Part shown: one piece after another, positions 9,535 to 29,477 of the stretch
Position numbering within the stretch: the first letter of the stretch is position 1
Layout: each line of letters opens with the position of its first letter
Source: Pseudarthrobacter equi
Lineage (GTDB): Bacteria > Actinomycetota > Actinomycetes > Actinomycetales > Micrococcaceae
Direction: 5' to 3'
Assembly (NCBI RefSeq): GCF_900105535.1
Contig: NZ_LT629779.1
Location: 2,790,001 to 2,854,000, forward strand
Length of the DNA: 64,000 bases
The notes under the pieces: model-generated
Database searches by the model: none
Seen by the model: only the letters and a program-made list of their open reading frames with translations
Told to the model about the DNA's origin: nothing
Position numbers and translations under genes: made by a program

Positions 9535-12096
9535 TTGCCAGGCATGAACCTGACGCGCGATGAAGCCCGCGCCCGCGCCGAACTGATAACTGTCGAGTCC
9601 TACGAGGTGAGCCTGGACCTGACCCGCGGCAGTGAGGTGTTCGGCAGCACCACCACCGTGAAATTCGGGGCCGTTGCCGGGGCTGAGACGTTCATCGACG
9701 CCGTGACGCACACGGTGCACAGCGTGACCCTGAACGGCCAGAGCCTGGACCCCGCCGCTGTGGCCGACGGCGTGCGGATCCAGCTGCCCGGCCTGCAGGA
9801 ACACAATGAGCTGACGGTGGTGGCGGATGCACCGTACATGAACACCGGCGAGGGCCTGCACCGTTTCGTTGACCCCGTGGACAACGAGGTCTACCTGTAC
9901 ACGCAGTTTGAAGTGCCCGATTCCCGCAGGATGTTTGCCGTCTTCGAGCAGCCGGACCTCAAGGCGACGTTTGCCTTCACGGTCACCGCGCCCTCGCACT
10001 GGGACGTCATCTCGAACTCCCCCACGCCAACACCGGCCGAAACTTCTCCCTCCGAAGACGGCGGAGCCCGCTCGGTGTGGACCTTCACACCGACGCCCCG
10101 GCTGTCCTCCTATGTGACAGCCCTGATCGCGGGCCCCTACCAGTCGGTCCGCAGCGAGGTCACAAGTTCCGACGGGCGGGTCATCCCGCTGGGCGTTTTT
10201 GCCCGCAAGTCGCTGATGCAGTACCTGGATGCGGACAACATCTTCGAACTCACGCGGCAGGGCTTCGGCTTCTTCGAAGCACAGTTCGGCTGCCCCTACC
10301 CGTTCGAAAAGTACGACCAGCTGTTTGTGCCCGAGTTCAACGCCGGAGCCATGGAAAACGCCGGCGCCGTGACCATCCTCGAAGGCTACGTGTTCCGCAG
10401 CAAGGTCACCGGCGCCCAGATCGAACGCCGTGCCATCACGGTGCTGCACGAGCTCGCGCACATGTGGTTCGGCGACCTCGTGACCATGCGGTGGTGGAAC
10501 GATTTGTGGCTGAACGAGTCCTTCGCCGAGTACATGTCCCACCTGGCGGCCGTGGAGGCCACGTCCTTCACCAGCGCCTGGACCACTTTCGCCTCGGTGG
10601 AGAAGTCCTGGGCCTACCGCCAGGACCAGCTGCCCACCACCCACCCGATCTTCGCTGAGATCAACGACCTGCAGGACGTCGAGGTGAACTTCGACGGCAT
10701 CACCTACGCCAAGGGCGCCTCGGTCCTGCGGCAGCTGGTGGCCTGGGTGGGTCCGGAACAGTTCATGGCCGGCGTTCGGGAATACTTTGCCAAGCACTCC
10801 TGGGCCAACACCGAGCTGAGCGACCTGCTGGTGGAGCTCGAAAAGGCCAGCGGCCGCGACCTGGACGACTGGGGACGGCAGTGGCTGGAGACCGCCGGAG
10901 TGAACACCCTGGTTCCCGAACTCGACGTGGACTCCGACGGGACGCTGCGCTCCTTTGCCATCCTGCAGTCCGCCGTGCCCGAGTGGCCCACCATCCGCCC
11001 GCACCGGCTGGCTGTGGGGTTCTACAACCTGAATGCCGCCGGCAAGCTTGAACGCGTGCACCGCGAGGAACTGGACGTCGACGGCGAACGCACCGACGTC
11101 CCGGCCCTGGCCGGGCTCAAGCAGCCGGACCTCATCCTGGTCAACGACGACGACCTCGCCTACGCCAAGGTCCGCCTCGACCCGAAGTCCCTGGCCACCG
11201 CGACGGCCCACCTTAAGGACTTCCAGGAAAGCCTGCCGCGGACGCTGGTCTGGAATTCGGCGTGGGACGCAGCCCGGGACGGCGAAACTCCGGCGCGTGC
11301 CTACGTGGAGCTGGTCCTCGCCAACGTGGCCGCAGAAACGGATTCCTCCGTCATCCTGGTGCAGCTGCGCCAGCTGGCCACCACGCTGAACTTCTACGTG
11401 GCCGAGGAACACCGCGAAGCCACCACCGCCGCGGCCGTGGACCGGCTCTGGGACCTGGCGCAGGAAGCTCCCGGCGGATCCGACGCGCAGCTCCAGTTCG
11501 CTAAGTCCTTTGCCCTGCTGGCCGGCAGCACTTCCCAGCTGGACCGGGTGGCCGGGCTCCTGGACGGGTCAGTCGCTTTGGATGGGCTCACCGTGGACCA
11601 GGACCTGCGCTGGGAACTGGTGGCTTCCCTGGTGGCCGGCGGCAGGCTCGGCCGGGACGGAATCGACGCCGAGCTGGAACGGGACAGGACCGCCAGCGGG
11701 CAGAACGCTGCGGCACTTGCCACGGCTGCCATCCCAACGCCCGAGGCCAAAGCCGCCGCCTGGGAGTCGATCGTAGTCAAGGGCGATCTCTCCAATGCGT
11801 TGCAGGGTTCGGCCGTGGCCGGGTTCATGCGGGTGCTGGACCGGTCGCTGCTGGAACCATACGCGGAGAAGTACTTCGCGGCTGTCCCGGGCATCGTGGC
11901 CACCCGCACGCACGCACTTGCCCAGCAGATCGTCGTCGGGCTCTACCCGGCGCTGCTGACCACCCAGGCCACGGTGGACCGCACAGATGGATTCCTGGCG
12001 TCACTCCCGCAGGAGAGCGCTGCGCTGCGCCGGATGATGCTGGAAAACCGCGACGGCGTGGCCCGGGCACTGCGCGCCCGCGCCGCGGACGCCTGA
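9535..12096 (+). CDS. pepN: Aminopeptidase N (M1 family)
   Basis: This cytoplasmic zinc metallopeptidase removes N-terminal residues from peptides. I chose TTG at 9535 because GGAGGT lies 4 nt upstream and the resulting MPGMNLTRDEA start matches actinobacterial PepN; the ATG three codons later is 13 nt from that site. This gives 853 residues. Substrate motif GAMEN is at residues 271-275, the zinc site HELAH at 305-309 with the third ligand Glu328 in NESFAEY. The open frame continues far upstream of 9535 but that part is not PepN-like. The upstream 167 bp is shared with the divergent DUF1648 gene. Confidence 0.96.
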   Translation: MPGMNLTRDEARARAELITVESYEVSLDLTRGSEVFGSTTTVKFGAVAGAETFIDAVTHTVHSVTLNGQSLDPAAVADGVRIQLPGLQEHNELTVVADAPYMNTGEGLHRFVDPVDNEVYLYTQFEVPDSRRMFAVFEQPDLKATFAFTVTAPSHWDVISNSPTPTPAETSPSEDGGARSVWTFTPTPRLSSYVTALIAGPYQSVRSEVTSSDGRVIPLGVFARKSLMQYLDADNIFELTRQGFGFFEAQFGCPYPFEKYDQLFVPEFNAGAMENAGAVTILEGYVFRSKVTGAQIERRAITVLHELAHMWFGDLVTMRWWNDLWLNESFAEYMSHLAAVEATSFTSAWTTFASVEKSWAYRQDQLPTTHPIFAEINDLQDVEVNFDGITYAKGASVLRQLVAWVGPEQFMAGVREYFAKHSWANTELSDLLVELEKASGRDLDDWGRQWLETAGVNTLVPELDVDSDGTLRSFAILQSAVPEWPTIRPHRLAVGFYNLNAAGKLERVHREELDVDGERTDVPALAGLKQPDLILVNDDDLAYAKVRLDPKSLATATAHLKDFQESLPRTLVWNSAWDAARDGETPARAYVELVLANVAAETDSSVILVQLRQLATTLNFYVAEEHREATTAAAVDRLWDLAQEAPGGSDAQLQFAKSFALLAGSTSQLDRVAGLLDGSVALDGLTVDQDLRWELVASLVAGGRLGRDGIDAELERDRTASGQNAAALATAAIPTPEAKAAAWESIVVKGDLSNALQGSAVAGFMRVLDRSLLEPYAEKYFAAVPGIVATRTHALAQQIVVGLYPALLTTQATVDRTDGFLASLPQESAALRRMMLENRDGVARALRARAADA

Positions 12097-21499: not shown

Positions 21500-22687
21500 A
21501 TGACTCTCTCCCCCACCCCTGCTGACAAGTTCACCTTTGGCCTTTGGACGGTGGGCTGGACCGGAGCCGATCCCTTCGGTGTGGCCACCCGCGCGGCCCT
21601 TGACCCAGTGGAGGCCGTGCACAAGCTGGCGGACCTCGGCGCCTATGGCATCACCTTCCACGACAACGACCTGGTCCCCTTCGACGCTCCAGCCTCCGAG
21701 CGCGAACTGATCCTCAAGAACTTCCGCGCGGCACTCGCCGACACCGGGCTCAACGTGCCGATGGTCACCACCAACCTGTTCAGCCACCCGGTATTCAAGG
21801 ACGGCGGCTTCACCTCCAACGACCGTTCCGTGCGCCGGTTCGCCCTGTCCAAGGTCCTCCGCAACATTGACCTCGCGGCAGAGCTCGGCGCAGAGACTTT
21901 CGTCATGTGGGGTGGCCGCGAAGGCAGCGAATACGACGGCTCCAAGGACCTCGCCGCCGCACTGGACCGCATGAAGGAAGGCGTTGACACGGCCGCCGGC
22001 TACATCAAGGACAAGGGCTACAACCTGCGCATCGCGCTCGAGCCCAAGCCCAACGAACCCCGCGGAGATATCTTCCTGCCCACCGTCGGTCACGGCCTGG
22101 CCTTCATCGCCCAGCTCGAACACGGCGACATCGTTGGCCTGAACCCCGAGACCGGCCACGAGCAGATGGCGGGCCTGAACTTCACCCACGGCATTGCCCA
22201 GGCGCTCTGGGCCGGCAAGCTCTTCCACATCGACCTCAACGGCCAGCGCGGCATCAAATACGACCAGGACCTCGTCTTCGGCCACGGCGACCTCACCAGC
22301 GCCTTCTTCACGGTGGACCTGCTGGAGAACGGCTTCCCGGGCGGCGGCCCCAAGTACGACGGCCCGCGCCACTTCGACTACAAGCCGTCGCGCACGGACG
22401 GCTACGACGGCGTCTGGGAATCCGCCAAGGCCAACATGGCGATGTACCTCCTGCTCAAGGAACGGGCGCTGGCCTTCCGCGCGGACCCGCTGGTGCAGGA
22501 AGCCCTCAAGGCATCGGGCGTCTTCGAACTCGGCGAACCCACCCTCAACGCCGGAGAAACCACCGCAGACCTGCTCGCCGACGCCGCCGCATTCGAAGAC
22601 TTCGACGCCGACAAGGCAGCAGAGCGTTCGTTCGCGTTCGTCCGGCTCAACCAGCTTGCCATCGAGCACCTCCTCAACGCCCGCTGA
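21500..22687 (+). CDS. xylA: Xylose isomerase
   Basis: XylA converts D-xylose to D-xylulose, the first step of bacterial xylose use. The 395-residue length is that of the class I actinobacterial enzyme (as in Streptomyces and Arthrobacter). Motifs seen: [12 protein letters not shown] with the catalytic His, [27 protein letters not shown] with a metal-binding Glu, and [15 protein letters not shown] precedes the ATG at a suitable distance. xylB follows after 2 nt, forming an operon. Confidence 0.98.
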
Positions 22688-22689
22688 CC

Positions 22690-24108
22690 ATGGCACTGGT
22701 CGCGGGAATCGACAGTTCCACCCAGTCCTGCAAGGTAGTAATCCGCGATGCCGGCACCGGCGTTTTGGTCCGGCAGGGCCGCGCGCCACACCCCGAGGGC
22801 ACCGAGGTCCACCCTGTCCACTGGTGGGACGCCCTCCAGGCGGCGATCGCCCAGGCGGGTGGCCTTGACGACGTCGCCGCCGTCTCCGTCGCCGGGCAAC
22901 AGCACGGCATGGTCTGCCTTGACGCCGGCGGCGCGGTGATCCGCCCTGCCCTGCTGTGGAACGACACACGGAGCGCCGGTGCCGCCGCGCAGCTCATCGA
23001 CATGGCGGGCGACGGCGATGCTGCCGCCGGCGCCCGCTTTTGGGCACAGGCCACAGGGACAGTCCCGGTAGCGTCGCTGACGCTGACCAAGCTGCACTGG
23101 CTCCGGGAAAACGAACCGGAAAACGCAGCCAGGGTTGCCGCCGTCTGCCTCCCGCACGACTGGCTGACCTGGCGCCTGGCCGGGTACGGACCGGGAAGCG
23201 GCGCGGTTGGGCTTGATGCGCTGGTGACGGACCGCTCGGACGCTTCAGGGACTGGATACTTCTCGACGGCGGAGGGAAAGTACCTGCCCGACCTCGTGGC
23301 CGCATCGCTTGGCCACACCCCGACACTGCCGCTGGTCCTTGGCCCGCTGGAGGCAGCAGGCAGGACACCGGCCGGCAGCCTGCTCGCAGCGGGCGCGGGT
23401 GACAACGCTGCAGCGGCACTGGGTGCTGGTGCGGGGCTGGGCGACGTTGTGATGTCCCTGGGCACGTCCGGCACCGTCTTCGCGGTTTCGGAGACACCGG
23501 CGGCTGATGCAACCGGACTGGTGGCCGGGTTTGCGGATGCGGCGGGGCACTACCTGCCCCTCATCTGCACGCTGAATGCCACGCGCGTATTCGATGCAAC
23601 AGCAGCGCTACTGGGAGTGGACCTGGCCGAATTCAACCGGCTGGCCCTGTCAGCGCAGCCCGGCGCGGGCGGCCTGACCCTGGTGCCGTACTTCGACGGG
23701 GAACGCACCCCCAACCTGCCGGATGCCACCGGTTCCCTGCACGGCATCACACGGGCAAACTACACCCCGGCGAACGTGGCGCGCGCCGCCGTCGAAGGCG
23801 TGGTGTGCTCCCTGGCGGACGGGCTGGCCGCGCTCCTGGAACAGGGCGTGGAGGCAAGGCGCATCGTGCTGGTGGGCGGCGGCGCACAGTCGGCGGCCGT
23901 CCAGGATGCCGCGGCCCGGCTGCTGGGGGCGGCCGTCGCCATTCCGCGGCCGGGAGAATACGTGGCCGACGGCGCTGCCCGCCAGGCCGCCGCAGCACTC
24001 ACCGGCGCTTTCCCCGCCTGGGCGTCAGACGCCGTCGTGCTTCCCCGGGGAACGGACGACGCCGGTGTGCTGGCGGCATACCGCCGGTTCGCCTCGCTGT
24101 ACGCCTGA
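22690..24108 (+). CDS. xylB: Xylulokinase
   Basis: XylB phosphorylates D-xylulose to xylulose 5-phosphate, which enters the pentose phosphate pathway (rpiB and gnd are in this window). The 472-residue FGGY kinase has [12 protein letters not shown] at residues 7-18, [11 protein letters not shown] with the substrate loop, the ATPase motif [11 protein letters not shown], and [19 protein letters not shown] near the C-terminus. No xylose transporter is adjacent. A long hairpin ends the operon. Confidence 0.97.
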
Positions 24109-24223: not shown

Positions 24224-25063
24224 TCAGGCGTACGGCAGGACAAGCTCCGCGTAGCGTTCCTTGACCGTGGACAGCACGGTGTTGCCGTCGGTGTCCCAGA
24301 TCTCCTGGTTGAAGATTTCGACTTCGATGTCGCCGGTGTAGCCGGCATCCCGCACCCAGGTGCCGATGGTGGCGAAGTCCACGACGCCATCGCCCATGTA
24401 TCCGCGGGAGAGCAGCGGATCAGCGGCAATGGGCATGTTGAAATCGCACACCTGGTAGGAAGCGATGCGGTTTTCCCGCCCGGCCCGCTCGATCTGCGCC
24501 TTCAGCTCCGGATCCCACCAGACATGGAACGTATCCACGGCGACGCCCACCGTCGCGGCATCGAAGGGCGCCGCAAGGTCCAGCGCCTGGCCAAGGGTGG
24601 AGATGAGTGCGCGGTCCGCGGCGTACATCGGGTGCAGCGGTTCCAGCACCAGCCGGACGCCGTTTTCCGCGGCGAACGGAACAAGGTCCGCCAACCGGTC
24701 CGCCACACGCTGCCGTGCCGCCACGACGTCCTTCTCCCCCGGCGCCAGGCCGCCTACCACCAGGAACAGTTCCCTGGTGTCCAGTGCCACGGCCTCGAGG
24801 ATTGCTGCGCGGTTGTCAGCGAGCGCAGCCGCCTGCCCCTCGGCGTCGGCAGCGGTCAGGAAACCGCCGCGGCACAGCGAGGAGACCCGCAGTCCCGCGT
24901 CCTTGATCAGGCGGGCAGCCTTGTCCAGGCCGGCCTCCTCCACGCGGTCCCGCCACGGGCCGATGGAGGGAATGCCGGCGTTGACGCATCCCTCGACCAC
25001 CTGGGCAAGTGTCCATTTCTTGGTGGTGGCGCTGTTGATGGCCAACCTTGAGAAGTCGCTCAC
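24224..25063 (-). CDS. Sugar phosphate isomerase/epimerase (TIM barrel), substrate unknown
   Basis: The 279-residue protein belongs to the AP-endonuclease-2-like TIM-barrel superfamily. Likely metal ligands are Glu in LVLEPLHP, Asp and His in VAVDTFHVWWDP, and Glu in IEVEIFNQE near the C-terminus. It begins at GTG, overlapping the stop of the DUF993 gene by 4 bases (GTGA), so it is the third gene of a coupled operon. Relatives epimerise or dehydrate keto-sugars and sugar acids. The exact reaction cannot be read from sequence. Confidence 0.82.
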   Translation of the reverse strand: MSDFSRLAINSATTKKWTLAQVVEGCVNAGIPSIGPWRDRVEEAGLDKAARLIKDAGLRVSSLCRGGFLTAADAEGQAAALADNRAAILEAVALDTRELFLVVGGLAPGEKDVVAARQRVADRLADLVPFAAENGVRLVLEPLHPMYAADRALISTLGQALDLAAPFDAATVGVAVDTFHVWWDPELKAQIERAGRENRIASYQVCDFNMPIAADPLLSRGYMGDGVVDFATIGTWVRDAGYTGDIEVEIFNQEIWDTDGNTVLSTVKERYAELVLPYA

Positions 25064-26274
25064 ACGCCCACCCCGTTGATCCGCAGGTAGTCGGACATCC
25101 GGAAAGCGGCGAGGGCGGGATCCTTCAGCAGGCCCGCCTGGTCGGCGAGTTCGAAGGTCTTGGCCAGGTGGCAGACGGAGCGGCCGGAGTGCAGGCCGCC
25201 CACCATCTGGAAGCCCGGCTGCTTGCCGTTGAGCCAGGACATGAACGCAATGCCGGTCTTGTAGTAGAACGTGGGGGCGCTGAAGATGTGCTTGCCTAGT
25301 TCGCGGGTGGAGTCCAGGATCTCGCGGGCCTTGGCGGCGTTGCCGGCGTCGTAGTTCTGCAGGGCTACCGAGGCGGCCGGGTAGATGGCTGCGAAGATGC
25401 CGAGCAGCGCGTCCGAGTGGTGCGTGCCGTCTCCGTCGATGAGTTCGGGGTAGTTGAAGTCATCGCCGGTGTAGAGGCGGACGCCCGCGGGCAGGGCTGC
25501 GCGCAGGGCCACCTCGTGGCTTGCATCGAGCAGCGAGACCTTGACGCCGTCAACCTTGTCCGCGTTGTCCTTGATGAGGCCCAGGAAGGTCTCGGTGGCG
25601 GCAGCGACGTCGTCGGAGCCCCAGTAGCCGGCAAGCGCGGGATCGAACATGGTGCCCAGCCAGTGCAGGATGACCGGCTGGTCAACTTCCTGCAGCAGCG
25701 TGGAGTACACGCTCAGGTAGTCCTCCGGACCCGTGGCTACCTTGGCCAGGGCACGGGAGGCCATCAGGATGACCTTCGGCCCGGCTTCGCTGATGACGGC
25801 AATCTGTTCGCGGTAAGCCTCGAGGACAGCCTTGAGGCCGGCTTCGCCCGCGGGCAGGGAGTCGATGTCCAGCTGGTCGGTGCCTGCGCCGCAGGACACG
25901 AGGTCACGGACGGACTTGCCGGCGGTGGCTGCGCTGTTCGCTGCAACCACGGACGCCGCCTCGACGCCGGTGCGCTTGATGAGTTGCTGGGTGGCTGCCC
26001 AGTCGAGGCCCATGCCCCGCTGTGCGGTGTCCATTGCATCGGCGACGCCCAGACCGTAGGACCACAGTTCGTGGCGGTAGGCCATCGTGGCATCCCAGTC
26101 CAGGCGTGCCGGGGCACCGGGGGTGTTGTCGGCAAGGACCTCGGGGATGACGTGGGCTGCGGCGTACGCCCGCCGCGCTGTCAGAGGGGCGGAGGGGCGG
26201 GCCCAGGTGGTGCCGCCCTGCAGGCGGTATTCCCGCGTGCCGCCGTCGTGGGAGGGAAGGATGAGGGACGTCAT
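25060..26274 (-). CDS. DUF993 / dihydrodipicolinate-synthase-like aldolase family protein
   Basis: The 404-residue protein starts MTSLILPSHDGG at ATG 26274, which overlaps the stop of the oxidoreductase gene by one base (TAATG). The frame remains open upstream but only inside that gene. Class I aldolase features are visible: VILHWLGTMFDPALAGYWG in the middle and DKVDGVKVSLLD, where the Lys could form the Schiff base as in the GIKE motif of DHDPS. A long N-terminal extension of about 90 residues and a C-terminal helical part distinguish it from DHDPS. Likely an aldolase acting on a keto-sugar acid; the substrate is unknown. Confidence 0.75.
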   Translation of the reverse strand: MTSLILPSHDGGTREYRLQGGTTWARPSAPLTARRAYAAAHVIPEVLADNTPGAPARLDWDATMAYRHELWSYGLGVADAMDTAQRGMGLDWAATQQLIKRTGVEAASVVAANSAATAGKSVRDLVSCGAGTDQLDIDSLPAGEAGLKAVLEAYREQIAVISEAGPKVILMASRALAKVATGPEDYLSVYSTLLQEVDQPVILHWLGTMFDPALAGYWGSDDVAAATETFLGLIKDNADKVDGVKVSLLDASHEVALRAALPAGVRLYTGDDFNYPELIDGDGTHHSDALLGIFAAIYPAASVALQNYDAGNAAKAREILDSTRELGKHIFSAPTFYYKTGIAFMSWLNGKQPGFQMVGGLHSGRSVCHLAKTFELADQAGLLKDPALAAFRMSDYLRINGVGV

Positions 26275-27443
26275 TAGAGCGTGATCTCCGGGATGTCGAT
26301 GGTGCGGCGTTCGTCGTTGGACTGCAGGCCGAGCTCTGCAAGCTGGACACCCCGGGCGGCGGAAAGCAGGCCGAAGCGGTGTTCGCGGCCGGCGACGACG
26401 TCGCGGAGGAATTCCTCCCACTGCAGCTTGAAGCCGTTGTCGAGTTCGGCGTTGGCGGGAACTTCCTGCCACTGGTCGCGGAAGGATTCAGTGACGGGCA
26501 GGTCCGGGTTCCACACGGGCTTGGGGGTGTGCGCGCGCTGCTGGGCCACGCACTTGTTGAGGCCTGCGACGGCAGAACCGTGGGTGCCGTCGATCTGGAA
26601 TTCCACCAGCTCGTCGCGGTAGACGCGGACGGCCCAGGACGAGTTGATCTGGCCCACGACTGCGTCTCCCGCGGGGGTCTCAAGCTCGAAGATGCCGTAG
26701 GAGGCGTCGTCGGCCGTTGCCTTGTATTCCTTGCCGGCCTCGTCCCAGCGGGCGGGGATGTGCGTAGCGGTCTTGGCGCTGACGCTCTTGACTTTGCCGA
26801 TGATGCCCTCGAGGACGTAGTTCCAGTGGCAGAACATGTCCGTGGTCATTCCGCCGCCGTCTTCCTTGCGGTAGTTCCAGGACGGGCGCTGGGCGGCCTG
26901 TACGTCGCCTTCGAACACCCAGTAGCCGAACTCGCCGCGGATGGAGAGAATACGGCCAAAGAAGCCTTCGTCCACCAGGCGGCGGAGCTTGACCAGGCCG
27001 GGGAGGTACAGCTTGTCGTGGACGACGCCTGCGGTGACGCCGGCTTCCTTGCCAATGCGGGCCAGCTCGATGGCCTCTTCCAGGGTTTCCGCGGTGGGCT
27101 TCTCGGTGAAGATGTGCTTGCCGGCCAGCATGGCCTTCTTCAGGGTGGCAGCACGCAGGCTGGTCATTGAGGCGTCGAAGATGACGTCAACGGTGGGATC
27201 GTTGATGACCGATTCCAGGTCCGTGGTCCATTCGGCAACCTTGTGCTTCTCCGCCAGTTCGCGGATCTTTGCCTCGTTGCGCCCCACCAGGATGGGCTCA
27301 ACCTGCACGCGGGTGCCGTCTTCCAGGGTGAAGCCGCCGGCGTCACGGATCGGCAGGATGGAACGCAGCAGGTGCTGGCGGTATCCCATGCGGCCGGTGA
27401 TGCCGTTCATGGCGATGCGGATCGTCTTTGTTTCGAAGCCCAT
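26274..27443 (-). CDS. Gfo/Idh/MocA-family sugar dehydrogenase, substrate unknown
   Basis: First gene of the minus-strand sugar cassette. The ATG at 27443 (MGFETKTIRIAMNG) follows GGAGGACAC; the upstream in-frame ATG lacks a site. In the 389 residues, an N-terminal Rossmann fold carries NGITGRMGYRQH instead of the plain GxGxxG, and the conserved EKPTAETLEEA holds the catalytic Lys. The C-terminal beta-sheet domain follows. Members oxidise sugars or inositols with NAD(P). Two LacI-type palindromes lie in its promoter region. Confidence 0.88.
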   Translation of the reverse strand: MGFETKTIRIAMNGITGRMGYRQHLLRSILPIRDAGGFTLEDGTRVQVEPILVGRNEAKIRELAEKHKVAEWTTDLESVINDPTVDVIFDASMTSLRAATLKKAMLAGKHIFTEKPTAETLEEAIELARIGKEAGVTAGVVHDKLYLPGLVKLRRLVDEGFFGRILSIRGEFGYWVFEGDVQAAQRPSWNYRKEDGGGMTTDMFCHWNYVLEGIIGKVKSVSAKTATHIPARWDEAGKEYKATADDASYGIFELETPAGDAVVGQINSSWAVRVYRDELVEFQIDGTHGSAVAGLNKCVAQQRAHTPKPVWNPDLPVTESFRDQWQEVPANAELDNGFKLQWEEFLRDVVAGREHRFGLLSAARGVQLAELGLQSNDERRTIDIPEITL

Positions 27444-27485
27444 GTGTCCTCCACGGTGAGTGAGCAAGTTTTACTCAAGCCTGAT

Positions 27486-27503
27486 TGGGAAAGCGCATTC
27501 CCA
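27486..27503. promoter_or_regulatory. LacI-type operator O1
   Basis: TGGGAAAGCGCATTCCCA is an 18-bp palindrome except for one A/T pair at its inner part, with the central CG step usual for LacI-family sites. It lies downstream of the proposed -10 of the dehydrogenase operon, so binding would block transcription. Confidence 0.65.
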
Positions 27504-27511
27504 CTGAATCC

Positions 27512-27541
27512 ATCATGCACCGCTCCCGCCGGAGTTGGCAA
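27512..27541 (-). promoter_or_regulatory. Possible promoter of the sugar cassette
   Basis: On the minus strand TTGCCA (27541-27536) is followed after 18 bp by CATGAT (27517-27512). The -35 overlaps operator O2 and the region just downstream holds operator O1. Confidence 0.4.
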
Positions 27542-27550
27542 GCGCTTTCC
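27537..27550. promoter_or_regulatory. LacI-type operator O2
   Basis: GGCAAGCGCTTTCC is palindromic apart from one position and shares the AAGCGC core with O1. It lies about 48 bp (centre to centre) from O1 and 63-76 bp before the lacI start. Confidence 0.6.
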
Positions 27551-27612
27551 GGAAGAACTTTCAACTGCCATAATGTGGTGACCGTTATCTTCCCCGACGT
27601 CCAGGAGCTGCT

Positions 27613-28701
27613 GTGGCTGCTAGTACCCTCACCGAGGTGGCCCGGCTCGCCGGGGTGTCTCCCGCCACCGCCTCCCGCGTCCTCAACGGCTCCGCGCGCA
27701 AGCCCGGCAAGGACATCGCCGAGCGGGTCCGCCAGGCGGCAGATTCTTTGGGCTACATTCCCAACGCGCAGGCACAGGGACTGGCGAAGTCGAGTTCCGG
27801 CCTGATCGGCCTGATTGTCCACGACATCGCGGACCCCTACTTCGCGGCAATTGCCAGGGGCGTCCAGGAGGCTGCCCGCGAACAGCGCCGGATGGTGCTG
27901 CTGGCCACCACGGGCGGGGCGCCCGGGGAAGAAAAGGAAGCAGTTGCCGCCTTCGCTGCCCGGCGCGCCGACTCGATCGTGATCGCCGGCTCGCGCTCGT
28001 CGCGGGCTGAGGACGGGGACGAAAACGCGGAACTGGCCGCGGAGCTGGACCGCTACTGCCGCAACGGAGGGCAGGTTGCTGTGGTGGGACACCCTGTCGT
28101 GGGCGCCGCAGCCCCGGAGGGCTACCACGTGGTGTCGGTCCCCAACCAGGAACTTGCCGCAGACCTTGCCGTGGAACTGGCCGCGGGGTGGGACGGCGAC
28201 TTCGTCATCATCGGCGGCCCGGAAGGGCTCTTCACCTCCGATGACCGGATCCGCGGCTTCCAGGAAGGGCTCAGCCGGGCCGGCCGCGGCCCCGCCGAGG
28301 TACTGCGGAACTCCTTCAACCGGTCCGGAGGATACGAGGCCGGCCTCAAGCTGGCGGCACGGATCAAGGCCGGCGGAACCGGCGGGAGCGGCCGGCCGGC
28401 CGGCAACGGGCTGGGTATTTTCGCTGTCAATGACGTCATGGCCATCGGTGCGGCCGCCGCCTTGCGCGCAGAAGGGCTACGCATCCCGCGCGACGCACGG
28501 ATCGCAGGCTTCGATGACATCGAGACCCTGCGCGATTTCAGGCCTGCGCTTTCCACGGTCAGCCTGCCGCTGGAGGAGATTGGGCGGCTCGCCACCAGGG
28601 CCACTGCACCACCAACGGCCGACGGCGACGACCAGGATTCCGCACCGCTTCCGGTGACCGGCAGAGTCATGCTGCGCCGCAGCACGGAGGCCACGGACTG
28701 A
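27613..28701 (+). CDS. LacI-family transcriptional regulator of the sugar cassette
   Basis: The 362-residue protein starts at GTG 27613 with CAGGAG upstream. The HTH (TLTEVARLAGVSPATASRV) covers residues 5-23 and the hinge helix follows (GLAKSSS). The periplasmic-binding-protein-like domain contains GLIVHDIADPYFAAIARGV and FAVNDVMAIGAA. A glycine-rich insert (AGGTGGSGRPAGNG) is seen near residue 260. It is divergent from the dehydrogenase operon and overlaps the esterase start by one base (TGATG). The two palindromes in the gap are its likely operators. Confidence 0.92.
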   Translation: MAASTLTEVARLAGVSPATASRVLNGSARKPGKDIAERVRQAADSLGYIPNAQAQGLAKSSSGLIGLIVHDIADPYFAAIARGVQEAAREQRRMVLLATTGGAPGEEKEAVAAFAARRADSIVIAGSRSSRAEDGDENAELAAELDRYCRNGGQVAVVGHPVVGAAAPEGYHVVSVPNQELAADLAVELAAGWDGDFVIIGGPEGLFTSDDRIRGFQEGLSRAGRGPAEVLRNSFNRSGGYEAGLKLAARIKAGGTGGSGRPAGNGLGIFAVNDVMAIGAAAALRAEGLRIPRDARIAGFDDIETLRDFRPALSTVSLPLEEIGRLATRATAPPTADGDDQDSAPLPVTGRVMLRRSTEATD

Positions 28702-29477
28702 TGGCGCCGAACGGCCTGACCTCAGTTCCCGCCCGTTGCTCCGGTGGCGGGTTGCGGCCCGCCGTCCTGGTCCTGCCCGGCGGCGGCTATGCGCGCCAGG
28801 CCGACCATGAGGCCGAACCCGTGGCCGAATGGCTCGCCTCGCTGGGTATTCACGCCTTTGTCCTGCGCTACCGGGTAGCCCCACACCGGCACCCCGCTCC
28901 CCTGCGGGATGCCAAGGAAGCCTTGCTGTACATACGCGGCGGCGCCCATGGCCTGGCGGTGGATCCCGAACGGGTCGGGGTGCTGGGATTCTCGGCGGGC
29001 GGCCACCTCGCTGCCACACTGTCCACGGCGGTTTCCACGGGAGACCCGGCCCTCGATGTGCCCGGCTCCGTCCCCGACCTGGCAGTGCTGTGCTACCCCG
29101 TGGTCTCGTTGACCCGGGACGTGCACCAGGGGTCGGTCGACAACCTCGTGGGCGACGCACCGTCCCCGGCCCTGCTCTCGGCCCTTTCCGCGGACCGTCA
29201 GGTGACCTCCCAGACCCCGCCGGCTTTCCTGTGGCACACGGCCGACGATGAAGCCGTGCCCGTCAGCCACAGCCTGGGCTACGCGCAGGCGCTTTTCGAC
29301 GCCGGCGTGCCCGCGGAACTCCATGTCTTCCCGCATGGCCGGCACGGCATCGGCCTGGCAGCCGGAGCACCGGGCGCCGAGGAGTGGCCTGCACTGTGCG
29401 CGGCGTGGCTGGAGCGCGCCGGCTGGACGTTCGCCGGCCAGTCAGCCGCCCCCGAACCTGCAACAGCGGCGCCCTGA
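28701..29477 (+). CDS. Alpha/beta hydrolase, probable acetyl esterase
   Basis: The 258-residue protein has the oxyanion segment LPGGGYARQADHE, the nucleophile elbow GFSAGG, an acid in HTADDEAVPV and His in FPHGRHGIGLA, so the triad is complete. Relatives deacetylate xylo-oligosaccharides and other sugar esters (BD-FAE/COG0657 type). No signal peptide is seen, so it would act inside the cell. It is translationally coupled to lacI, which suggests its substrate is connected with the cassette's sugar. Confidence 0.82.
   Translation: MAPNGLTSVPARCSGGGLRPAVLVLPGGGYARQADHEAEPVAEWLASLGIHAFVLRYRVAPHRHPAPLRDAKEALLYIRGGAHGLAVDPERVGVLGFSAGGHLAATLSTAVSTGDPALDVPGSVPDLAVLCYPVVSLTRDVHQGSVDNLVGDAPSPALLSALSADRQVTSQTPPAFLWHTADDEAVPVSHSLGYAQALFDAGVPAELHVFPHGRHGIGLAAGAPGAEEWPALCAAWLERAGWTFAGQSAAPEPATAAP

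Follow-up and report, generated by a model that had tools for sequence, protein, structure and literature searches.

Organization of the cassette

We analysed a stretch of 64 000 nucleotides of the Pseudarthrobacter equi genome (contig NZ_LT629779.1, forward-strand positions 2,790,001 to 2,854,000; hereafter, the window), in which three overlapping minus-strand genes, called the cassette below, diverge from a gene for a LacI-family repressor. The first, gfo (26274..27443), encodes a Gfo/Idh/MocA dehydrogenase of 389 amino acids (aa) with Pfam GFO_IDH_MocA domains. It is followed by a gene for a 404-aa DUF993 protein (25060..26274; PF06187 in Pfam), a predicted Schiff-base lyase with a fold predicted to be like that of the dihydrodipicolinate synthase/N-acetylneuraminate lyase (DHDPS/NAL) enzymes, and by one for a 279-aa TIM barrel that is xylose-isomerase-like, i.e. 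of an isomerase/epimerase-like type (24224..25063; Pfam AP_endonuc_2). The gfo stop codon TAA and the DUF993 start codon ATG overlap by one base within TAATG, and the next two genes share the four bases GTGA, made up of the DUF993 stop TGA and the isomerase-like start GTG. On the plus strand, lacI (27613..28701; 362 aa, Pfam LacI and Peripla_BP_3) overlaps by one base, its stop TGA against the start ATG, a gene for an esterase (28701..29477), an alpha/beta-hydrolase resembling PaeX and AxeA1 (Pfam BD-FAE/Abhydrolase_3; below the NCBIfam equivalog cut-offs) which is likely an accessory to the cassette. An earlier reading of the bare DNA (the original prediction) had given the coordinates of the three minus-strand genes with their one- and four-base overlaps, the overlap of the divergent lacI with the esterase gene and the lack of a transporter gene within the unit; all of this holds in the sequence, and Pfam confirmed every enzyme family that had been named.

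Conservation of the gene order

The three-gene cassette is real and conserved, and largely without assigned function. The relatives compared were the best 80 loci, ranked by DUF993, of 590 stretches confirmed in a scan of genome contigs, together with 12 plasmid loci picked by hand from 60 listed of 147 matching records and mostly showing 41-52% DUF993 identity. Counts of cassette genes and of glycerate kinase genes rest on tblastn with the window's proteins; open reading frames called by third-position guanine-plus-cytosine content, a procedure that picked antisense frames in some loci, were used for orientation and for naming neighbour clusters only. The three genes are indeed kept together: in 75 of the 80 genome loci, DUF993 is immediately preceded by gfo and immediately followed by the isomerase-like gene, with order and strand as in the window, a linkage far beyond chance. 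The exceptions are two contig ends (L032, L052), a locus with a displaced partial gfo match (L063) and two with neither gene (L044, L077). The arrangement is spread over Actinomycetota and also occurs in one Paenibacillus and one Thermosporothrix record. Of the 80 loci, 51 have a comparable lacI gene in divergent orientation and 10 have one upstream on the same strand, and none was found in 19; the esterase gene was found in 10. On the plasmids, the isomerase-like gene adjoins DUF993 in 10 of the 12 loci (not in L082 and L092) and gfo does so in four (L082, L084, L085 and L090). Within a sample of 61 genomes of the genus, DUF993 was detected in 46 and gfo (E ≤ 1e-100) in 45, adjacent in all 45; 15 genomes lack both genes, and G030 has a broken DUF993 only. 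Full-length gfo copies in the genus are 94-100% identical to that of the window, and LacI is 67-79% identical in the genus genomes compared.

Operator-like sites and a distant glycerate kinase gene

The gap between lacI and gfo holds two operator-like, near-perfect palindromes, O1 (GGAAAGCGCATTCC, 27488..27501), which is conserved in relatives, and O2 (GGCAAGCGCTTTCC, 27537..27550). Two sites of this kind, with no more than one mismatch and spaced by 48, 49 or 50 bp, are present in all 30 genus loci read, namely the best-scoring DUF993 places of the genus sample with the window's own included; the gap between repressor and operon thus contains conserved palindromes, as in a LacI regulon. In many relatives further removed, a single GGAAAGCGCATTCC, GGAAAGCGCTTTCC or AGAAAGCGCTTGCT occurs in the corresponding gap.

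The 14-mer of O2 recurs far from the cassette. In the 4.46-Mb genome, GGAAAGCGCTTKCC matches exactly two places, the lacI-gfo gap and C1:567559-567572 (none for the backward control), and the latter site is the O2 14-mer itself, 25 bases upstream of the start codon (ATG) of a gene for glycerate kinase, glxK (PF02595 match at C1:567604-568710), which lies about 2.2 Mb from the cassette and is one of three such genes in the genome. Exact matches to the looser GGMAWGCGCWTKCC number four, of which two lie in the gap, one is the glxK site and one is at C1:4003206. This last one (C1:4003206-4003219 in G000; 8206-8219 of L127) is a perfect degenerate-operator match before a 64-codon open frame, and no sugar gene was recognised close to it.

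All 61 genus genomes have glxK, 84-98% identical to the window genome's in the others. A stringent pattern that joins the operator to the start of glxK occurs in 17 of the 61, all 17 with DUF993, and its backward control in none. The DNA upstream of glxK was read in 60 genomes (G052, in which the match does not start at residue 1, was left out), and the broken DUF993 copies of G002 and G030 were counted as DUF993-bearing; an operator with at most two mismatches then precedes glxK in 38 of 45 DUF993-bearing genomes versus 1 of 15 DUF993-free ones. It begins 38-40 bases before the ATG; shuffling the sequences gave such a site in 5 of 1,200 cases. The LacI ortholog (E ≤ 1e-60), which was sought in 20 of the 61 genomes, a scope to be counted among the reservations given below, is present in G000, G012, G005, G060 and G030, and among the 15 DUF993-free genomes in G013 only. 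G013 is also the only DUF993-free genome with the glxK site, and the other 14 have neither repressor nor site; in the DUF993-free genomes, therefore, presence of the site tracks that of the repressor rather than that of the enzymes. G060, with no operator at the usual glxK, carries another, 64%-identical gene for glycerate kinase, which immediately follows the isomerase-like gene.

Of the 92 loci, 12 have a glycerate kinase gene within the cassette or close to it (8 of the 80 genome loci and 4 of the 12 plasmid loci), where about 1.2 would be expected from the density in this one genome (three per 4.46 Mb), the loci not being independent. It immediately follows the isomerase-like gene in L033, L039, L042, L045, L046, L085 and L090 and DUF993 on plasmid pAO1 (L082), and is found beside LacI in L013 and about 3 to 5 kb from the cassette in L025, L026 and L091. 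Two genomes, which also carry another copy of the cassette, have second, pAO1-like copies of the run gfo-DUF993-glycerate kinase with no room for a TIM barrel in between (G039:C2:67208-70689 and G040:C1:108668-112149).

What is new here is the likely inclusion of glycerate kinase in the regulon: judged from the palindromes, the window's LacI would bind O1, O2 and the glxK site. Because one palindrome also stands before glxK, and a weaker similar site before a transporter gene, the unit is probably not closed on itself; of the LacI-linked three-enzyme cassette originally predicted, the conservation and the absence of a kinase stand.

The search for attached transporters gave a lead only, beside ATP-binding cassette (ABC) genes in some of the relatives' loci. 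An MHS-type gene of the major facilitator superfamily (MFS) at C1:440245-441639 has a one-mismatch operator upstream, at C1:440164-440177 (G000, L131), and could thus be a further candidate for the LacI regulon. MFS matches (E ≤ 1e-150) occur in 31 of the 61 genus genomes, all with DUF993; the search scored 27 of up to 55 candidates per genome, which makes absences less sure. A site within two mismatches lies upstream in 21 of these 31 genomes and none in 10, compared with 6 of 620 shuffles. In a clade of five genomes (G012, G022, G043, G045 and G053), a 61%-identical MFS gene lies beside LacI with two operator-like sites, and relatives are found near the cassette in L014 (97% identical to that clade's gene), L037 (77%) and L019 (36%). 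The link is weakened by the fact that the window genome's site overlaps the stop codon of the preceding gene (LysR-like by eye).

Protein families and solved relatives

The DUF993 protein scores 596 bits against PF06187, whose Pfam gathering cut-off is 24, and belongs to a family with at least 7,997 relatives in a protein search; we found no account of the function of DUF993 (PF06187) in the open-access literature searched. Its predicted fold is a (beta/alpha)8 barrel of the DHDPS/NAL type, and Lys245, invariant in 42 sequences, is aligned to the Schiff-base lysine on strand 6 of DHDPS in a weak profile match (E 0.076); the profile search was used in place of hhalign, which gave no meaningful alignment of DUF993 with one DHDPS relative. 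DUF993 differs from the enzymes of that superfamily (DapA, 2-keto-3-deoxygluconate (KDG) aldolase, N-acetylneuraminate lyase) in that identity is 12-20% among the matches listed and in being about 100 residues longer. Its closest solved relative is 4dnh (SMc04132 of Sinorhizobium meliloti). For Gfo, which has the motifs EKP at residue 114 and GGG..D..H from residue 196, the best PDB match is 3oqb (E 1.1e-137), and for the TIM barrel the closest solved relatives are 7vpf and 3ju2/3qc0 (SMc04130, so that S. meliloti has both a DUF993 protein and a similar barrel). Across the three proteins, the names of these relatives are oxidoreductase, uncharacterized protein, putative sugar isomerase and the like. 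In a table of PMC12542648, SMc04133 is listed as a putative oxidoreductase, and neither it nor SMc04132 has an assigned function.

None of gfo, DUF993 and the isomerase-like protein reaches an NCBIfam equivalog cut-off. Gfo obtains 78.5 bits against levoglucosan dehydrogenase (NF052479; cut-off 650), 61.4 against the inositol 2-dehydrogenase IolG (TIGR04380; cut-off 355) and 23 against the Gfo6-type xylose dehydrogenase (cut-off 350), and the TIM barrel 19.1 against hydroxypyruvate isomerase (TIGR03234; cut-off 353).

A proposed route from an unphosphorylated substrate to phosphoglycerate

The reading that we prefer, and to which we would give about an even chance, is that the cassette and the distant glxK stand under one LacI repressor and together convert an unphosphorylated sugar or sugar acid to phosphoglycerate. 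The oxidation, isomerisation and aldol-type cleavage without a kinase that the original prediction had assembled fit the enzyme classes, and the three steps would take place on a substrate that has not first been phosphorylated. The esterase could strip acetyl groups from it. Gfo would make a keto group, and DUF993, through a Schiff base on Lys245, would cleave a keto acid by a retro-aldol reaction, in the simplest case a 2-keto-aldonate into hydroxypyruvate and glyceraldehyde or glycolaldehyde. The TIM barrel may shift the carbonyl before or after cleavage, for instance from hydroxypyruvate to tartronate semialdehyde. Reductases or aldehyde dehydrogenases encoded elsewhere would bring the C3 fragments to glycerate, and glycerate kinase would phosphorylate this to phosphoglycerate as the entry into metabolism. 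The likely link to glycerate kinase is a better guide to where the pathway ends than are the names of the enzymes.

A bolder form of this proposal, which we offer as a tentative and rather doubtful possibility, is that DUF993 forms a new class of Schiff-base lyases in the DHDPS superfamily, with a histidine in the position of the catalytic tyrosine; its substrates would be non-deoxy keto sugar acids, and its products hydroxypyruvate or glyceraldehyde units; with its partners it would make up a widespread, undescribed glycerate-producing route, in which one LacI also commands glxK and the MHS-type transporter in trans. The cassette recurs in Actinomycetota, in Pseudomonadota, in a Paenibacillus and in a Thermosporothrix, and the regulon link provides a testable product, glycerate, which reduces the search for the substrate to a small set of assays. 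DUF993 is a large family with a solved structure. Should it prove to act as an aldolase, a textbook superfamily would gain a reaction type, and sugar breakdown a further start without a kinase.

Several observations weigh against the reading preferred here. On the side of the operators, sites of the GGAAAGCGCTTTCC type are common to LacI-family repressors in general, and when one mismatch is allowed the degenerate motif occurs at 23 places in this genome and its backward control at 6. Only one of the three glycerate kinase genes has the exact site, and the operator is absent before glxK in 7 of the 45 DUF993-bearing genomes. The five-genome clade named above, which groups with the DUF993-free G051 on the glxK tree, and G005 retain LacI together with the operators at the cassette but have no glxK site. 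Among five independent pairs on that tree that differ in DUF993, the site is concordant in two, opposite in none and does not differ in three. The association between operator and DUF993 is clade-structured, the sign test is without power and significance is out of reach; the Fisher value of 8.6e-8 for 38 of 45 versus 1 of 15 therefore overstates the case. On the side of the enzymes, the lysine alignment to DHDPS is insignificant by itself (E about 0.08), DUF993 has no PF00701 match, PF06187 being its sole Pfam family at E ≤ 0.001, and, to judge from strand position, an invariant histidine, H204, seems to stand at the place of the DHDPS catalytic tyrosine, so that the reaction may differ from that of DHDPS. 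The nearest characterised fold relative of the TIM barrel is IolI, not hydroxypyruvate isomerase. Finally, six plasmid loci from rhizobia, Sagittula and Burkholderiales (L086, L087, L088, L089, L091 and L093) have no Gfo and instead a short-chain dehydrogenase/reductase (SDR) gene, annotated 3-ketoacyl-acyl-carrier-protein reductase; there, DUF993 and the TIM barrel are accompanied by genes for coenzyme A (CoA) transferase, acyl-CoA dehydrogenase or enoyl-CoA hydratase. A plain sugar-acid route leaves these SDR and CoA-thioester contexts unexplained. From the variety of gene contexts, we suppose that DUF993 and the TIM barrel may act on a common intermediate to which several substrates lead.

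Alternative explanations

The alternative that survives best, although we regard it as unlikely, is an oxidative D-xylose route of the pAO1 type, in which D-xylose is oxidised by Gfo and glycerate kinase helps to recycle glycolaldehyde, through glyoxylate and glycerate, after cleavage of the pentonate. On pAO1 (Paenarthrobacter nicotinovorans), Gfo and DUF993 are 95% and 96% identical to those of the window, adjacent and in the same order, with a glycerate kinase gene in the same run. The pAO1 cluster differs from ours in having genes for a GMC oxidoreductase, an ABC transporter and an aldehyde dehydrogenase, the last annotated 'D-xylose catabolic process', and in lacking a TIM-barrel or LacI match in the stretch. 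It may be that part of the cassette is already in print through work on this plasmid, presumably in a 2013 paper that we take to describe this very gfo-DUF993 cluster. That paper (Mihasan et al. 2013, doi 10.1016/j.resmic.2012.10.003), on an oxidative xylose pathway on pAO1, is cited in a reference line seen in each of PMC6305408 and PMC12472514; the available main text of two articles on the same pAO1-bearing strain (PMC6214936 and PMC10494377) has no word starting with xylo. The original claim that no described pathway has this combination is doubtful for the gfo-DUF993 part, since the pAO1 cluster appears to have been published as an oxidative xylose pathway; the rest has no assignment in NCBIfam or in the open-access literature searched. 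In the window, moreover, the cassette adjoins xylA (21500-22687) and xylB (22690-24108), both above their NCBIfam cut-offs and convergent with it on the opposite strand. This neighbourhood, pointed out in the original prediction, exists here and is not conserved: only 11 of the 80 loci have xylA close by, and a ROK-family gene (Pfam) divergent from xylA is the likely regulator of xylA-xylB. For these two reasons we rejected the argument from proximity for xylose as the substrate; the neighbourhood says little about it. No dehydratase is annotated in the pAO1 stretch compared and none was found among the cassette genes, Gfo falls far below the cut-off for the Gfo6-type xylose dehydrogenase, and the TIM barrel would have no obvious role.

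A variant of the non-phosphorylative Entner-Doudoroff pathway appears more improbable. A dehydratase encoded elsewhere would yield a 2-keto-3-deoxy acid, which DUF993 as an aldolase would split into pyruvate and glyceraldehyde, the latter going to glycerate and 2-phosphoglycerate. Known KDG aldolases belong to the DHDPS/NAL fold, as DUF993 is predicted to do, and a glycerate kinase in the likely regulon, as suggested by the shared operator, would suit such a route. An enolase-superfamily-like gene cluster is found in 7 of the 80 loci, including those of Nocardiopsis and Micromonospora (the member in L054 was confirmed by Pfam), and in Chelatococcus an 'enolase' gene precedes gfo. The cassette genes themselves, however, include no sugar-acid dehydratase (the rest of the genome was not searched for one), and here again the TIM barrel has no obvious role.

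Catabolism of a cyclitol or anhydrosugar, which we consider slightly less probable still, would have Gfo oxidise a ring hydroxyl, the IolI- or LgdB-like TIM barrel isomerise or eliminate, and DUF993 open or cut the keto ring. IolG and IolI of the myo-inositol route belong to the same superfamilies as Gfo and the TIM barrel; the window's Gfo falls short of the IolG cut-off, as it does of that for levoglucosan dehydrogenase, and we know of no DUF993 counterpart in that route. The nearest characterised route combining Gfo with PF01261 TIM barrels is that of levoglucosan (LgdA-LgdB1-LgdB2-LgdC), which likewise acts on an unphosphorylated sugar and whose cluster in Bacillus smithii includes a LacI gene (PMC10066097, PMC7676230). 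It differs in ending at glucose, and the passages of these articles that we consulted name neither DUF993 nor a DHDPS-like enzyme for it; 'dihydrodipicolinate' is absent from the main text of PMC10066097. Nor would glycerate be an obvious product.

Least probable of all is that the palindrome before glxK is the site of a different repressor of the LacI family and that this glycerate kinase is unconnected with the cassette: the generic motif with its 23 one-mismatch places, and the five one-clade genomes and G005 with cassette and LacI and no glxK site, speak for it, but the exact 14-mer occurs at the gap and glxK only, 14 of the 15 DUF993-free genomes lack both LacI and the site whereas the one with LacI has the site, and glycerate kinase adjoins the cassette in distant taxa.

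Other neighbours of the cassette

In L015, L016, L018 and L024, a gene for an extracellular binding protein and one for a Gfo-DUF6807 fusion lie nearby (the members in L018 were identified by Pfam). The fusion gene stands beside the cassette at 12145-14172 of L015, 12186-14291 of L018 and 6123-8249 of L231; in the last of these, from G012, a one-mismatch operator-like site lies upstream of it. ABC genes of the NMT1/SsuA type, identified from L020 and L028, are common to six loci of Mycolicibacterium, the Rhodococcus group and Nocardia (L019, L020, L021, L025, L026 and L028). On a Streptomyces plasmid (L092, 10007-11194), a DUF993 gene lies directly before a type I polyketide synthase gene, and in the Sinorhizobium locus L091 the match to the TIM-barrel gene (11163-11991) is split in two, and the gene has no annotation in the record. 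In the window's genome, a further one-mismatch operator-like site (G000, C1:2459406-2459419; L129) marks the 5′ end of a run of genes that, by eye, look like transketolase, transaldolase, pgi and zwf.

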